Positions 54,929 to 64,000 of a stretch of DNA of 64,000 bases are shown in pieces. Position 1 is the stretch's first letter, and each line of letters opens with the position of its first letter. The position numbers and the translations under genes were made by a program. Source of the DNA: a virus; IMG/VR virus record IMGVR_UViG_3300032242_001644, positions 22,413-86,412 of that record; one strand, written 5' to 3'. Below the pieces are notes generated by a model. That model was not told the origin of the DNA, did not search any database, and was given only the letters and a program-made list of their open reading frames with translations.

Positions 54929-57900
54929 TTAACCCAGGATCAAGCCCCAAAGATCAGTAATGGCAGCAATCTCAGCAGCATTTAACAGAGCAACATTACC
55001 GCCACCTAACGATACATATTCAATTCCGTTAAAAACCTCGGCCACACTTAAATTTGTATTAAATCTAAAGTCACCAAGCACTGGATTTGTTGGGCGACTA
55101 GCTTCATCACCTGCTGGGATACCAATTCCGCCTGCGCCGCCGAACTGAACATACCCGTATCCTGTATTTTGCACAACAATAGCAGAAGTGGGGTCTTCGT
55201 TTTGTATATTGTTTGTGTTAAATTCAATGTTACCAAGTTTTAATTGACCAGCGTTATCCGGAGTTAGTACAATATCGGACCCAACACTAGTTGATGAAAT
55301 TGTATTTCCGCTAAACTGTAAATTATTGTTCACTAACATCGAATTGAGATTCAATCCAGCTGATGTCAGTGTCATTGCTGTGGTGTTATTGGCTACAAAA
55401 TTAATGCTGTTGTTGGTAGGATGGGCAAGAACTGTAGTTCTACGATCTGTTGAAAATAATCCGCCAAACGTAACTCTAGCTCCGTTCCATCCTGAAAATA
55501 ATGTATCAGATGTGTTTAATCTAATGTCTCCAATATTGTTTGTACTACGGGCAGCGGTAGTACCTGAAGGAATTTTTAATGCATTAGTGGCTGATATTAT
55601 TGCGCTGCCTGCACCAACTGTTAGCTCAATGTTGTCATTCAATGCCGTTGCTTTAATACTATTTGCATCGAACGTAATTTTAGGTAATGTTACATTTCCA
55701 AGACCTGCTGCAACTAATTTAATATTTGTAGAGGGCTGACTTGTTATATAATTCTGAGAAATTATTAAATTACCGTTGGTAAACATATCGGAGTATACAG
55801 TTCCGCTATTGTTAATAGTAGTGGTTGCTGTTGTTCCATTGACCCGCAATTGATTTGTTATTGCTACATTGTCATATCCTACACGTACAACTCCGCTGCC
55901 TGCGGCACGTAATTCTAAATCGGCATTAGATGCTGTGGTTGTAATCACATTATTAACTATCGACATTTCAGCAAAAAACGCACTAGTGTCAGTTACTGTT
56001 AAATTATTAGAAATACTAAAATTACCAGTTTGAACAACATTGCCAGTTTGTGTTTTATTTCCTGTGAGCAATTCGTTAGCAATTACAAGATTCTTAATCG
56101 AAGTGGCACCTGATACTTTCAACTCGTGATCAATTAACAGTGGATCATAGGCTAAATGTATATCTTTTGTTGCTCTTAACACTAAATCAACATTGCCCAA
56201 TGTGGTAATGTAGTTGTCTTTAAAAACAATGGTACCATCGCTGAAACGATCCGAAGTAATTGTTCCGCTGTTTGTTATTCCTGCAGTTGTTGTTGACCCG
56301 TCAACTTGTAAATTTGCCGCAACTCTAAATACATCATCAATTACCACGCGACCGGTTCCTGCAGCACGTAATTCTAAATCTGCGTTTGTATCAGATGTAG
56401 AAATTATGTTGTTAACAATATCAACATTGTTAAAATATGCAGCTTGGGTAACCGTTAAATTATTAGATAATGTGTAATCGCCTGTTTGATTAGAATTACC
56501 TGTTTGATTGCTAGTGCCTATATGTGTCAATAGTACCGGTGCAAGTGCATTACCAATGACAGTATTGCCTAATGTTGATGTTCCGGTAACAGCCAAATCA
56601 TTACTAATTAATACACTATTAGACGCTGCTGATACTTTTCCAGATAAATTAGGGGACAATATTAAATTATCATTGCCCACGGTGGTGGCAATATAGTTTT
56701 GTGTTATTACTATGTTGCCTTCTGTAAATGTGTCAGCTGTTATAGTTCCACTGTTGGTAATACCGTTTGTGGTAGTGGTACCTACAACACGTAAATTATT
56801 TGTAATAGTTAAATTATCATTGACTAGAACTTTGCCAGTACCTGCTGCACGTAGTTCTAGATCAGAATTGGTATTAACTGTGGTAATTTGATTGTTAACA
56901 ATATTAATATTATTAAAATATGCTGCTTGAGTAACGGTTAAATTACGAGATAAGTTATAATTACCGGTCTGTATAGTATTGCCTGTTTGGTTACTAGCAC
57001 CGGTGTGGGTTATTGCTCCGTTAATAACAGTATTAGCCAGTGTTGATAATCCGTCTACTTTTAGATTGTTTGTAATTTCAACATTACTAACACCTATAAC
57101 TTTTCCGGTTGAGTGTGCTTTTAATAATAAATTATGATTTAATCCTGTTGTAGCTATTTGGTTATCAAAAATAACGATATCACTATCATTTAATCTAGGT
57201 AAAGACAGTGTATCGGTAATTGATGCATTACCAACTGTGGTTATACCCAACGCATTTAAATTATTTTGTATTTGTACATCTGCTACAGGAACCAAAACTT
57301 GTCCGCTACCTGCTGCATATAATTCTAAATCGGCATTAGATGCTGTGGTTGCAATTTGTCCAGCTGACACTGTGATAGTTTCGAATGCCGCTTGCACAGT
57401 TGCAGATATATTTCCAGTAAGTCCGATGCCGTTAGATACGTTTCTATTGCCGGTTTGTGTTGTTGACCCAGTTTGATGAATATATCCAGTTATATTAACA
57501 TTTTTTGTTGTGCTAGTACCATTAACTGTTAGTTGATTACTGATCAACAACTCATTATTTTCAAACAGAATCTTTCCGGACCCGTGAGTTCTTAATTCTA
57601 GATCTGCATTAGAAAGGGTAGTTTGTATAATATTGTCAAAAATTTGTATATTACTATCGATTACGGATAACTGATTGATTATTTTATTCCATCGTTTACC
57701 AGGTAATATTAATGGTTCGCCTAGCCCTGTTACAAATGTATCGTTACCTAAACTAAATCTTCGATCAGCTGACGGTAAAATATCCGAACTAGTGTCTGCT
57801 TTAAACTCAGTCATATCAACAAGTTGATCGCCGAGAGTTAATGTACCTTTAACGGAAAAATTGTTGCCTACTGAAATATCTTTATTTGCTAAAATATTTT

Positions 57901-59698
57901 GTGTTAAGTTTAAATTGTCAGTATTTGATACTAGATTAACATCTCCATATGTACTTGAAATTGTATTTCCGTTAAATTTTATATTTCCAGTAGAAACTAA
58001 AGTTGAATTAATTTTAGTTTCAGATCCAGCAGTGGCAAAATTAATAGAAGATGCCCCTTGTGCGGTTACACCTACTCCATTAAATGTTACATCTCCCGTT
58101 GCATGGTCAACTGAAAATGCATCGCCTACACGAAATGTTCCTCTATTATCTAAACTTTGATAATATACACGGCCGCCGCCTATTTCAATAACTTCATTAG
58201 TTTGATTGTTTACTGACGGATCGTTAACAACATCTGTTCCGGCACCCACGTATGCAAAATTATAATCAACAAGATATATTAATGTATTTGGGCCATCTGC
58301 ATATGCACCATATATTCCGTATACTGTGGCAGATCCAATACTTCTTACCTCGGCACCATATCTAGTAACACCAAGATTTGCGTCGTATCTTCCGATACCT
58401 GTAGTTGCATGAAGAGAAATATTTGCAAAGTAGGTAAAACAATTTAACCATTCAACACGCACACCGTTAGTCATGGTCAATGCATCGGCGTTGGGCGTAA
58501 TCATTGTTACGCTTTGGAATAACATACTTGCTTCTTTAGTTGAAGTATTTGCCACGGCGCCGTCAACCAGTGCTCCTCGACCAGCATCGTGGGCATTGAC
58601 CATTGTTTCTTTGGTAATAATAGAAACATTTTGGATATACGGGCTACGAGTTGTTACCTTAATGTCCGATGCAAATCTAAAAGCATATCCAGTATCGGCA
58701 CTACTACTATAATAAAAATCCTTAACTGTTAAGTCATTAATGGTAGTTTCACCATTTAATAAAAATACATCTTTGTTATTTGTCCCAACTGTGGGTACAA
58801 TAGTAACTGATCGTATGCCAGTTCCTCTAACAGTTACACCGGCCGGCACTGTCAACGGTAGTATTTCAGTATATGTTCCAGGGTATATTAAAATCTCATC
58901 ACCTGCTGATGCCGATAGCAATGCTTTTTTAATTGTTAAAAATGTATTGGCTTCATGATCACCATAGTTAGCGTCGTTACCGTTTACTGACACATACCAA
59001 AGTTTACCCGGACGTAATGTTAAATTTACACTACCTGATTCAAAAACATCAGTAGTAATAGTTTGTCCGTTTAATAAGTTTGCATAGGTATTAAGCCACC
59101 TGTTTCCACCAGTTGCAGGATCTTCGCCTAATGAATAAAAAGTATCCTGTGTTGGCAAGAAGTTGCTGTTAACACCTGCTGCAATATTAACTTGATCTTG
59201 AGAACTATTGTTACCAAATACAATAGTACCATCAATTAAAATATCCCCACTGGCATAGATATCTCCAGTTACATTTAAATTAGTTGGGATTTCAACTGTG
59301 CCAACACCGTGTGGGCGTAGTTCTATTGATTGGTTAGTTGTTGTAGACGAGATAATATTATCATTGAAATTTAAATCGTCTGTGCGTATATTAGGAGATA
59401 TAATGCTGCCAAGTGCATTTAAGTATAAATTGCCCGTGGTAGAGCTAATTGTATTAGCATTAGGAGTGTTAATTGTTAAGGTTGGTAATTTAAGAGCGTT
59501 TGCAATTAAATCAGTTGTCTTAAAAGATGAATTTACGTTTAATGCAGTCTGTGCATCAGTTGCGCTGGTGTTTATACCAATGCTTTTATTAGTAACATCA
59601 AGGTATAGTAGTGTATCATCTACTGAAAGATCAATACCTTGTCGCTCAAGGTTGTCCCTGAGCATTACACCTGAAATTCGCCCTAGTTCTTGTCCCAT
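54929..59698 (-). CDS. Giant beta-helix fibre, 1589 residues (paralog without LamG)
   Basis: A paralog of the 2052-residue fibre. I use the ATG at 59698 (MGQELGRISGVMLRDNL) because a GGAG lies 6 bases upstream; the TTG at 59710 gives four extra residues and overlaps that site. The beta-helix segment LWYVSVNGNDANYGDHEAN (about 231-250), RSPYIQNVSIITKETM, VEWLNCFTYFANISL and the C-terminal LELRAAGTGKV repeats (12 copies) line up with the paralog. The LamG-like lectin and the helical module are missing. The late promoter and ribosome binding site are good. Duplication followed by domain gain or loss is the most direct explanation. Two related fibres could give two specificities. Confidence 0.87.
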   Translation of the reverse strand: MGQELGRISGVMLRDNLERQGIDLSVDDTLLYLDVTNKSIGINTSATDAQTALNVNSSFKTTDLIANALKLPTLTINTPNANTISSTTGNLYLNALGSIISPNIRTDDLNFNDNIISSTTTNQSIELRPHGVGTVEIPTNLNVTGDIYASGDILIDGTIVFGNNSSQDQVNIAAGVNSNFLPTQDTFYSLGEDPATGGNRWLNTYANLLNGQTITTDVFESGSVNLTLRPGKLWYVSVNGNDANYGDHEANTFLTIKKALLSASAGDEILIYPGTYTEILPLTVPAGVTVRGTGIRSVTIVPTVGTNNKDVFLLNGETTINDLTVKDFYYSSSADTGYAFRFASDIKVTTRSPYIQNVSIITKETMVNAHDAGRGALVDGAVANTSTKEASMLFQSVTMITPNADALTMTNGVRVEWLNCFTYFANISLHATTGIGRYDANLGVTRYGAEVRSIGSATVYGIYGAYADGPNTLIYLVDYNFAYVGAGTDVVNDPSVNNQTNEVIEIGGGRVYYQSLDNRGTFRVGDAFSVDHATGDVTFNGVGVTAQGASSINFATAGSETKINSTLVSTGNIKFNGNTISSTYGDVNLVSNTDNLNLTQNILANKDISVGNNFSVKGTLTLGDQLVDMTEFKADTSSDILPSADRRFSLGNDTFVTGLGEPLILPGKRWNKIINQLSVIDSNIQIFDNIIQTTLSNADLELRTHGSGKILFENNELLISNQLTVNGTSTTKNVNITGYIHQTGSTTQTGNRNVSNGIGLTGNISATVQAAFETITVSAGQIATTASNADLELYAAGSGQVLVPVADVQIQNNLNALGITTVGNASITDTLSLPRLNDSDIVIFDNQIATTGLNHNLLLKAHSTGKVIGVSNVEITNNLKVDGLSTLANTVINGAITHTGASNQTGNTIQTGNYNLSRNLTVTQAAYFNNINIVNNQITTVNTNSDLELRAAGTGKVLVNDNLTITNNLRVVGTTTTNGITNSGTITADTFTEGNIVITQNYIATTVGNDNLILSPNLSGKVSAASNSVLISNDLAVTGTSTLGNTVIGNALAPVLLTHIGTSNQTGNSNQTGDYTLSNNLTVTQAAYFNNVDIVNNIISTSDTNADLELRAAGTGRVVIDDVFRVAANLQVDGSTTTAGITNSGTITSDRFSDGTIVFKDNYITTLGNVDLVLRATKDIHLAYDPLLIDHELKVSGATSIKNLVIANELLTGNKTQTGNVVQTGNFSISNNLTVTDTSAFFAEMSIVNNVITTTASNADLELRAAGSGVVRVGYDNVAITNQLRVNGTTATTTINNSGTVYSDMFTNGNLIISQNYITSQPSTNIKLVAAGLGNVTLPKITFDANSIKATALNDNIELTVGAGSAIISATNALKIPSGTTAARSTNNIGDIRLNTSDTLFSGWNGARVTFGGLFSTDRRTTVLAHPTNNSINFVANNTTAMTLTSAGLNLNSMLVNNNLQFSGNTISSTSVGSDIVLTPDNAGQLKLGNIEFNTNNIQNEDPTSAIVVQNTGYGYVQFGGAGGIGIPAGDEASRPTNPVLGDFRFNTNLSVAEVFNGIEYVSLGGGNVALLNAAEIAAITDLWGLILG

Positions 59699-59713
59699 AG
59701 TAGTCTCCAATAG

Positions 59714-61853: not shown

Positions 61854-62249
61854 TTAGTATTTGCCAGTTACTAGTGTTAGCTGAATATAATCTTCAGAAG
61901 AATCATTCACTAGAACCCATGTGTAGCGATTACCACTGAAATCAGTAGCAGTACGCTTGTGCAATTGGCGAATAACCACTGGGCCGTTGTCTGCTGCTTG
62001 GCCTTGATTTGTGTAACCAGTCATGACCATTTGTCCCGCAGCAGTAATACTGGAGACTAGTAAACACTTGCCTGTACCGTCGGCGTTGGTTACTTTGTAA
62101 CTTCTTGATCCTGTTTGTTTTACAATGTAGGCTGCTTTTGCAGTACCAAATGTAGGAATACGGGCAGATACTTTGATACCTGCTTGTGTTGTTGCGTAGT
62201 CACCAAATACTAATGTACCGGCAACATCTCTTTTTACTGGGCGTCCCAT
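61854..62249 (-). CDS. MGRP-type small virion protein
   Basis: A 131-residue protein starting MGRPVKRDVAG. The middle, KAAYIVKQTGSRSYKVTNADGTGKCLLV, corresponds to VKGYIVEQTGSKRFKCKDENG in the larger gene upstream, so the two share a domain. Proteins of this MGRP type lie next to structural genes in other marine T4-like phages. It ends with YTWVLVNDSSEDYIQLTLVTGKY, beta-rich. The leader before the ATG (AAGGAG site) has a hairpin and an 16-base element conserved with the leader of the upstream paralog. Probably a minor capsid or decoration protein, judging by its position two genes from gp23. Confidence 0.78.
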   Translation of the reverse strand: MGRPVKRDVAGTLVFGDYATTQAGIKVSARIPTFGTAKAAYIVKQTGSRSYKVTNADGTGKCLLVSSITAAGQMVMTGYTNQGQAADNGPVVIRQLHKRTATDFSGNRYTWVLVNDSSEDYIQLTLVTGKY

Positions 62250-62270
62250 TTTGTTTCTCCTTAATGTATT

Positions 62271-62340
62271 GACGTTCTAGGTCTACGGGGATGGTACCCC
62301 ATAAAGTCCGGACCTATTTTAGCGGACAGTTATATTTATT
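62271..62340 (-). promoter_or_regulatory. Leader with conserved hairpin element, copy 1
   Basis: A late-promoter-like AATAAATA (62340-62333) is followed by a leader holding a GGGG/CCCC stem with a 6-base loop (62287-62300). Directly after it comes the element GTAGACCTAGAACGTC (62286-62271), then AAGGAG and the ATG at 62249. The same order occurs before the 356-residue paralog. Confidence 0.65.
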
Positions 62341-62345
62341 ACAGA

Positions 62346-63416
62346 TTAAAATCCGCCTGTTGCTGTGTTATAGGCAAACTGAAGACCCGGTCCGTTTAGT
62401 TTTGTACCATCTTGACCAAGTGCAAATAATTGAAAATTACATCCGCCATTGTACTCGGTCATCCAAATACGGATTGGATACCATTTTGTAGAATCCATAG
62501 TTAAACTATTACGAGCACCACATTGAGCAGCTTGCCCTGGCATAGTTTTATTTGAACTATATAAATCATAGTTTGAAACAGTATATCCGCTTACTGCGTT
62601 ACTACCGATCCATACTGCGTTGTCATCGTCTGACTGACTAAAGAAGTTCCATTTTTGTGTTGTTGGAACTTTTACATAGCCCAGCCACTCCATTGAGAAG
62701 TTTTGTTGTCCTAATACTGCTCCATCGCTTTGCTGACCCCAACTTATGTATGTATCAACTACATCTGCTAAATGTTGGCCAGTTGTAAACAACGAAGTGT
62801 TCCAAGAACCGATAGCAGAACCTGCGGCAGTACCTAAATTACCATTGTATTTTCTACGTAGTAATCCTGTAGCTGAGTTAGATACTGTACTAATACCACC
62901 GCTGGCTGTGGCCGGAGTTCCTCTATCTGCATAGCTAACACCAGTAAATGCTGTAACTGCTGTTTTGAATGTTCCAGAACCTGGAATTGGGTATGTTACG
63001 TCAATGTCATCACCTTCTAAATCAACAGAGTTATTCATTGCGGCATTTGTACCAGCTTCTTCAACTTGCCAACGTCCATCAGTTGTACTTGTATCAAAAC
63101 TCCATGGCATGCTACGATCTTGGCCGTTGTAATAGAACGTTGCTTTGTGGCGGGCAATTTTTGTTGCCTGTTGAATTGTGTTGTCATCATACTTAAATGT
63201 GATAGACATTTCACCTGCTTGTAGGTCTGCGCTGGCTTTATCTTTTAGATAACAAATAGCAGTAACGCCATTCTCATCTTTGCATTTGAATCTTTTAGAA
63301 CCTGTTTGTTCTACAATGTAACCTTTGACACTTGAAGTACCATTATGAAATTGTACTTTAAGATTATTGAGTACATTTGCACCAAAGAATTGTTGTTTGC
63401 TTAATGGACGTCCCAT
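62346..63416 (-). CDS. MGRP-type virion protein with PA14-like domain
   Basis: A 356-residue protein starting MGRPLSKQQFFGANVLNNLK and sharing the EQTGSKRFKCKDENG domain with the 131-residue gene downstream. Residues about 219-340 form a PA14-like carbohydrate-binding domain: MEWLGYVKVPTTQKWNFFSQSDDDNAVWIG, split here as two known blocks (WLGYVKVPTTQKWNF; SQSDDDNAVWIGSNAVSGY), and WYPIRIWMTEYNGGCNFQLF. PA14 domains bind glycans. The gene is next to gp23, so a glycan-binding head decoration is a reasonable inference; a tail location cannot be excluded. It has its own late promoter and conserved leader. Confidence 0.82.
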   Translation of the reverse strand: MGRPLSKQQFFGANVLNNLKVQFHNGTSSVKGYIVEQTGSKRFKCKDENGVTAICYLKDKASADLQAGEMSITFKYDDNTIQQATKIARHKATFYYNGQDRSMPWSFDTSTTDGRWQVEEAGTNAAMNNSVDLEGDDIDVTYPIPGSGTFKTAVTAFTGVSYADRGTPATASGGISTVSNSATGLLRRKYNGNLGTAAGSAIGSWNTSLFTTGQHLADVVDTYISWGQQSDGAVLGQQNFSMEWLGYVKVPTTQKWNFFSQSDDDNAVWIGSNAVSGYTVSNYDLYSSNKTMPGQAAQCGARNSLTMDSTKWYPIRIWMTEYNGGCNFQLFALGQDGTKLNGPGLQFAYNTATGGF

Positions 63417-63433
63417 TTGTTTCTCCTTAAATT

Positions 63434-63488
63434 GACGTTCTAGGTCTACGCGGTGGGTGCCGCATAATAATTAGACATAGTATTTAGC
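63434..63488 (-). promoter_or_regulatory. Leader with conserved hairpin element, copy 2
   Basis: A late-promoter-like GCTAAATACTATG (octamer 63488-63481) is followed by a leader with a GCGG/CCGC stem and a 6-base loop (63450-63463). Then comes GTAGACCTAGAACGTC (63449-63434), AAGGAG and the ATG. Compared with copy 1 the stem shows one compensatory pair change. Confidence 0.65.
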
Positions 63489-63496
63489 CACAAAAG

Positions 63497-63521
63497 AAAA
63501 AGGACTCCGAAGAGTCCTTTT
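63497..63521 (-). terminator. Rho-independent terminator after gp23
   Basis: A strong GGACTC/GAGTCC stem with a TTCG tetraloop on the minus strand is followed by TTTTT. It separates the capsid gene transcript from the next late promoter 9 bases away. Confidence 0.9.
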
Positions 63522-63548: not shown

Positions 63549-64000
63549 TTAGCTGAAAGATACAGAAGTATCAGTAATGCCAACTTGACCTAGGTAGTCA
63601 GCTGCGTTACCTAGAGAAGACGCAGCGTTAGACAACTCAACATAACCATAACGTGTCATGAATGAAACGACTGGTTCGAATGTTGATGGATCCAATACAA
63701 CACCACTGCTCATCAATGGAATGTATGGGCAATAGAATGCAGGAGCGTCAGACTCAGAAGCGCCTTTGTAACCAACTAGTACGCCTGTGCTGTCAGCGGC
63801 ATAACCGTCAACATAAACACGCATAGAGCTGTTCAATGTACCAACGAACTTAGTGTTTGTTGGAGCTTCGAATGTGCCTTCTGTAGTACGAGCAAACGCA
63901 CTGGTTGTAGCAGACTGAAGAATTGTCAATGCTTGGTTAGAAACAACAGCCCAGTTACCAGAACCACGACGTGTACGTTGAGCAATCAAGTTGCTAACAC
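63549..64000 (-). CDS. gp23: Major capsid protein gp23-like, N-terminus outside window
   Basis: The C-terminal ~150 residues of the T4-type major capsid protein; the frame is open through the right edge. Matching blocks are RTRRGSGNWAVVSNQALTIL (the family's RRG.GN...S..V...L), VGTLNSSMRVYVDGYA, LVGYKGASESDAPAFYCPYIPL and FEPVVSFMTRYGYV. These follow the end of T4 gp23 closely, including the YKG....A..FYCPYVPL signature. Gene order in T4 places gp20-21-22 upstream, which here would lie beyond 64000. A strong terminator follows the stop, consistent with a highly expressed transcript. Confidence 0.96.
   Translation of the reverse strand, partial: VSNLIAQRTRRGSGNWAVVSNQALTILQSATTSAFARTTEGTFEAPTNTKFVGTLNSSMRVYVDGYAADSTGVLVGYKGASESDAPAFYCPYIPLMSSGVVLDPSTFEPVVSFMTRYGYVELSNAASSLGNAADYLGQVGITDTSVSFS

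Follow-up and report, generated by a model that had tools for sequence, protein, structure and literature searches.

Organisation of the locus

The window, a 64,000-nt stretch of DNA representing the terminal part of an 86-kb virus record, carried on its minus strand a gp23-type capsid gene, a terminator-like hairpin and two successive units of an RNA leader followed by a gene whose product starts with MGRP (356 and 131 aa, respectively). The leader nearer to the capsid gene (63.4 kb) was named leader 2 and the other one (62.3 kb) leader 1. In the order of the minus strand, the following features were recognised:

63549–63998, minus strand: 3′ part of a gp23-type major capsid gene, truncated where the record stops (Pfam PF07068, E = 1.4e-42)
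63495–63521, minus strand: terminator-like hairpin AAAGGACTC-TTCG-GAGTCCTTT where the capsid gene ends, followed by a T-rich run (sequence)
63481–63486, minus strand: late-promoter-like TAAATA of leader 2, 13 nt before UUAUG, short class with no P1 (sequence and family motif count)
63447–63466, minus strand: P2 of leader 2, UAUGCGG - CACCCA - CCGCGUA, 7 bp (sequence, RF02980 alignment, covariation)
63454–63457, minus strand: P2 loop CCCA of leader 2, complementary to UGGG at 63415–63412, putative pseudoknot stem (sequence; family-wide pairing and loop/start covariation)
63434–63446, minus strand: P3 of leader 2, GAC - CUAGAAC - GUC (sequence, RF02980 alignment, covariation)
63423–63428, minus strand: Shine-Dalgarno (SD) site AAGGAG of leader 2 (sequence)
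62346–63416, minus strand: MGRP gene, 356 aa, with a C-terminal GLEYA/PA14 lectin-like domain (ORF list, domain match)
62333–62338, minus strand: late-promoter-like TAAATA of leader 1, 28 nt before UUAUG (sequence; family motif count)
62306–62327, minus strand: P1 of leader 1, GUCCG/CGGAC (RF02980 alignment; P1/spacer rule)
62284–62303, minus strand: P2 of leader 1, UAUGGGG - UACCAU - CCCCGUA, 7 bp (sequence, RF02980 alignment, covariation)
62291–62294, minus strand: P2 loop CCAU of leader 1, complementary to AUGG at 62249–62246, putative pseudoknot stem (loop/start covariation)
62271–62283, minus strand: P3 of leader 1, GAC - CUAGAAC - GUC (sequence, RF02980 alignment, covariation)
62257–62262, minus strand: SD site AAGGAG of leader 1 (sequence)
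61854–62249, minus strand: MGRP gene, 131 aa, predicted all-beta (model pLDDT 84.5; distant PA5oct virion homologue)

Elsewhere in the window (54929–59710), a 1593-aa protein with repeated segments matched PHROG baseplate wedge and tail fibre families.

Two matching leaders had been noticed in an earlier sequence-only reading, and they proved to be real: the exact 16-mer GTAGACCTAGAACGTC occurred twice in the window, at 62271–62286 and 63434–63449, both on the minus strand, with 0.28 chance matches expected there at ≤ 3 mismatches. The stems GGGG/CCCC and GCGG/CCGC, the differing 6-nt loops (UACCAU and CACCCA) and the AAGGAG sites were all as described. The paired bases of the supposed 4-bp stem also held, but not its length, as they form the inner part of the 7-bp P2. 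Likewise, the conserved block reported after the stem was present but was not a separate element: its first three bases (GUA) belong to the 3′ arm of P2, and the remainder is the whole of the second hairpin, P3. The upstream hairpin P1 was found in leader 1 and was missing from leader 2.

Relatives of the leader and covariation of its stems

Relatives were collected from IMG/VR by searches with the 16-mer, with P3-variable patterns and with a pattern combining the SD site and the MGRP start, each giving at least 120 matches. The last pattern is blind to the hairpins, and inspection revealed P2 and P3 in all 71 newly found leaders among its listed matches; most of their loop variants fitted NUNRAAC. 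Five pattern matches were obtained in GTDB genome contigs, one with a weak model score (22.9 bits) and the rest with none, and none of the 120 listed pattern matches for leaders before ATGH starts passed the P2/P3 parser.

In an alignment of 65 leaders (A1), which includes two false positives left in the count (L176:6927 and L110:5807), 96.1% of cells paired, compared to 75.4% after shuffling and 25–52% when partners were slid. A total of 127 cells were doubly changed, versus 32 ± 5 in shuffles, and covarying pairs comprised all four tested in P3 (4/4) plus inner P2 pairs. The selection on RNA structure proposed from the two window copies was therefore borne out. Support for the leader structure is comparative and comes from the relatives; single-sequence folding gave z-scores of −0.84 and −1.59 for the window leaders, no better than many shuffles and with alternative pairings offered, and was dropped as proof of structure.

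The same data bear on a rival explanation, namely that the motif has no RNA function and reflects 5′ ends that were recently duplicated or moved as a recombination cassette. The window and one further record (L017) each carry two adjacent leader and MGRP units in the same arrangement, and the leader pair inside the window's record may be a tandem duplicate. Against this explanation, however, stand hundreds of records, usually with one copy each, with many different yet paired stems, including 38 distinct P3 5′ arms, in addition to the doubly changed cells. Recent duplication was excluded as the explanation of the motif because compensatory changes are seen independently in hundreds of homologues that are not linked, and we regard this rival as exceedingly improbable.

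Some positions hardly varied. The P3 loop NUNRAAC was near-invariant, even in leaders picked without selecting for it, and a U-G pair in P2 was kept in 234 of 247 leaders; this combination suggests contact with a protein. The P3 loop is anticodon-like, with U at position 2 and a purine at position 4, which is a resemblance only. In a subgroup including L169, L125, L127 and L159, AUCGGACUUCU was conserved between P3 and the SD site, and its CUUCU can pair with AGGAG, giving a possible extra hairpin over the SD site. Its arms hardly vary.

Probable membership of Rfam family RF02980

Both window leaders are probably members of a known, uncharacterised Rfam family, RF02980 (freshwater-2), with scores just below gathering: 49.1 and 46.9 bits (E = 1.8e-5 and 4.9e-5) against a gathering score of 49.9. 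Among 20 related loci, 16 had leaders that reached this score (17 leaders, with a maximum of 76 bits). The alignment spanned both window leaders end to end (model positions 1–84), and the features shared with the family were the P1/P2/P3 layout (P1 in leader 1 only), UUAUG...CGUA, the CUAGAAC loop and AAGGAGAAAACAAAUG. Each window copy showed the 7-bp UAUG../..CGUA hairpin followed by the hairpin with the CUAGAAC loop, and AAGGAG and AUG lay directly 3′ of the hairpins. Other Rfam families did not match the window leaders.

RF02980 is typed Cis-reg with no function named in the Rfam output, and the structure line of cmscan would not display a pseudoknot. A literature search, which did not cover the original family description, found no paper naming freshwater-2. 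Compared with the Rfam output only, the present analysis adds a phage late-gene context, the MGRP gene as partner and a predicted start-codon pseudoknot covarying with codon 2; assignment to one late virion gene and this pseudoknot would be new.

Genomic context of the leader

In phages with a T4-type capsid gene, the RF02980 leader occurs as a 5′ UTR element and is generally single-copy: searches with model R1 gave one strong leader copy per record in large records (up to 524 kb), and two in the window's record. A late-promoter-like TAAATA precedes the leader and an MGRP virion gene follows it, usually beside the gp23 capsid gene. TAAATA was present within 75 nt upstream of 237 of 241 leaders, versus 20 expected from mononucleotide shuffles, mostly at 13–37 nt from P2, and a gp23 gene lay upstream on the same strand in 158/198 cases. 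The late promoter of T4 is TATAAATA, and by analogy the upstream TAAATA was read as a putative late promoter. The P1 hairpin was present if the spacer between promoter and P2 was at least 20 nt, and missing if it was shorter. The downstream product started with MGRP in 240/254 cases and otherwise with variants such as MAR or MAK.

In the L404 record (G021:359789–360597), two adjacent MGRP genes were accompanied by one strong leader, before the first gene, the second having no leader of its own. In L125, a manA RNA and a glutamine riboswitch, both above Rfam threshold, were found upstream of the leader (2328–2532 and 2812–2861), and this phage therefore carries several cis-regulatory RNAs close together.

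Predicted pairing between the P2 loop and the start codon

The 3′ end of the P2 loop was CCCA, CCCG or CCAU, complementary to AUGGG. In the window the pairings are CCAU:AUGG for leader 1 and CCCA:UGGG for leader 2, so that the two differing loops both still fit the start codon. Comparison of 46 leaders with ATGGC starts (obtained with extra ATGGCA scans) and 200 leaders with ATGGG starts revealed that the loop base opposite start position 5 was G in 28/46 of the former and in none of the latter (Fisher p = 5e-25, uncorrected for kinship), and C in 3/46 and 148/200, respectively. A change of codon 2 from GGN to GCA thus goes with a change of the facing loop base from C to G. Several of the remaining ATGGC loops were GUCA or GCUA, which pair with UGGC via G-U pairs. 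When each leader's own start was compared with a start swapped G/C at position 5, the own start paired better in 190 leaders, worse in 6 and equally in 50; among the 46 ATGGC leaders, 9 paired equally with the swapped start and 4 worse with their own.

Kinship was taken into account with a protein tree built without the first four residues, on which start class required 14 changes, 10 of them on well-supported branches. In independent contrasts the loop followed the start in about 6 of 10 and went the opposite way in none, a modestly significant result once kinship was respected (median p = 0.03). P3 type did not explain the base swap and was excluded as a confounder. No covariation with the loop was seen for start position 6, and the ATGGG/ATGGC signal comes from a single variable start position.

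In geometry, the leader matches an H-type pseudoknot whose stems would be stacked. The predicted loop/start stem is short (3–5 bp), the paired loop bases are usually preceded by 1–4 nt and abut the 3′ arm of P2 (L2 gap of 0 nt in 168/246 leaders and 1 nt in 54/246), and an L3 of 26–45 nt holds P3 and the SD site and returns to the start codon. On comparative evidence only, loop/start covariation and H-type geometry point to a pseudoknot in these mRNA leaders, as in translational operators of the gene 32, S15 and S4 type.

Translational control was one of three roles guessed at in the sequence-only reading, and is now favoured among them in view of the covariation between hairpin loop and start codon. 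A second option is that the leader is mainly a 5′-terminal structure protecting late mRNA from decay, with start-codon pairing irrelevant. P1 or P2 would begin from a few to ~30 nt from the inferred transcript start, and stem sequences vary freely with pairing kept, both of which suit a stabiliser; such an element, however, needs neither an invariant P3 loop nor an exclusive single-gene partner nor a loop that tracks codon 2, and we consider this role unlikely. Slightly less probable still is a protein operator acting via P2 and P3 alone, or a small-ligand aptamer, with loop/start complementarity as a by-product. The near-invariance of the P3 loop irrespective of selection and the retained P2 U-G pair are what such a binding site would show, but in separate lineages a changed start codon is accompanied by a changed loop, and none of the independent contrasts went in the opposite direction.

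MGRP proteins and cultured relatives

Both genes encode MGRP proteins, as had been stated, and their link to the virion comes from Pseudomonas phage PA5oct, in which a distantly homologous protein is annotated as structural and as detected by ESI-MS/MS. The N-terminal domain is common to the MGRP proteins, and their C-terminus varies. The 131-aa protein was predicted to be all-beta (pLDDT 84.5), and a fold search with MGRP revealed no PDB relative, the only matches being uncharacterised phage proteins, e.g. of Agrobacterium phage Atu_ph07. The C-terminal GLEYA/PA14 domain of the 356-aa protein, whose lectin-like fold is familiar from adhesins of yeast, is missing from the neighbouring MGRP copy.

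MGRP genes with a homologous N-terminal domain were found in the cultured jumbo phages PA5oct, Paride, Phosso and Atu_ph07. In PA5oct and Phosso a TAAATA motif precedes the gene, almost directly abutting the SD site, and, unlike in the window, the gene does not adjoin the capsid gene. The leader model detected no P2/P3 leader at the MGRP genes of PA5oct, Phosso and Atu_ph07 in the searched records; weak matches in Atu_ph07 and Hallingskeid (E = 0.005–0.01) were not at any MGRP gene, and blastn of the consensus leader against cultured phages returned short chance matches only. As PA5oct, Phosso and Atu_ph07 carry MGRP genes without it, the leader was gained in one phage group or lost in others.

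A putative translational operator

We consider it likely, with a probability of roughly three in four, that the leaders are RF02980 translational operators whose pseudoknot would occupy the AUG. Comparison of sequences supports P2, P3, their position, the gene partner and the loop/start-codon covariation; transcription start, repression and effector are the parts of the operator reading that we infer. If transcription begins at the adjacent upstream late promoter, the RNA would form P2 and P3, in some leaders preceded by P1, and the P2 loop would reach the start codon (UGGG, UGGC or AUGG) and pair with it, producing an H-type pseudoknot with the SD site in its long connecting loop. While standing, the pseudoknot would occupy the AUG and MGRP translation would be held down or gated, until a ribosome or a protein opens it. 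With the AUG inside the predicted pairing and the SD site left in the connecting loop, control at initiation appears to be the simplest reading, either by occlusion or by entrapment as for S15 and S4 (PMC10931766). Such an operator would most likely set the dose or timing of MGRP relative to the capsid protein, and a regulator, possibly the MGRP product itself, would be likely to contact the P3 loop NUNRAAC and the P2 U-G pair.

A broader proposal, which we put forward tentatively and at somewhat less than even odds, is that RF02980, a widespread family, is a translational switch of phages: its loop would pair with the start codon of one late, capsid-adjacent virion gene and coevolve with codon 2, and a dedicated opener, perhaps MGRP or the capsid protein, would keep virion parts in proportion.

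Comparison with known leader pseudoknots

The pseudoknot of T4 gene 32, with two coaxial stems in the mRNA leader of a T4-type phage and tied to translation, provides an example from a phage of autogenous control involving a leader pseudoknot (PMC3014915). It lies 67 nt upstream of the start codon, whereas here the start codon is itself included in the predicted pairing, and it serves a replication protein (single-strand binding protein) rather than a late virion gene; autogenous control, a feature of gene 32, is for the MGRP leader a candidate role only. In E. coli rpsO (S15) and the alpha operon (S4), a pseudoknot around the ribosome binding site represses by entrapment (PMC10931766), a likeness to the present leaders without homology. 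An S15-like U-G/C-G motif was rejected and the leaders were not filed under it, as the P2 U-G pair adjoins G-C, not C-G.

According to a 2010 review, the gene 32 pseudoknot was perhaps still the only viral one in translational autoregulation (PMC3014915). Many large uncultured phages carry the RF02980 leader before a gene that usually follows the main capsid gene, and an orphan Rfam family is thereby assigned to phages with a T4-type capsid gene as host, is given a partner gene and acquires a proposed mechanism that is specific and can be tested. If the reading is true, this late virion gene would add a second type, with the pseudoknot at the start codon and RNA structure coupled to capsid stoichiometry.
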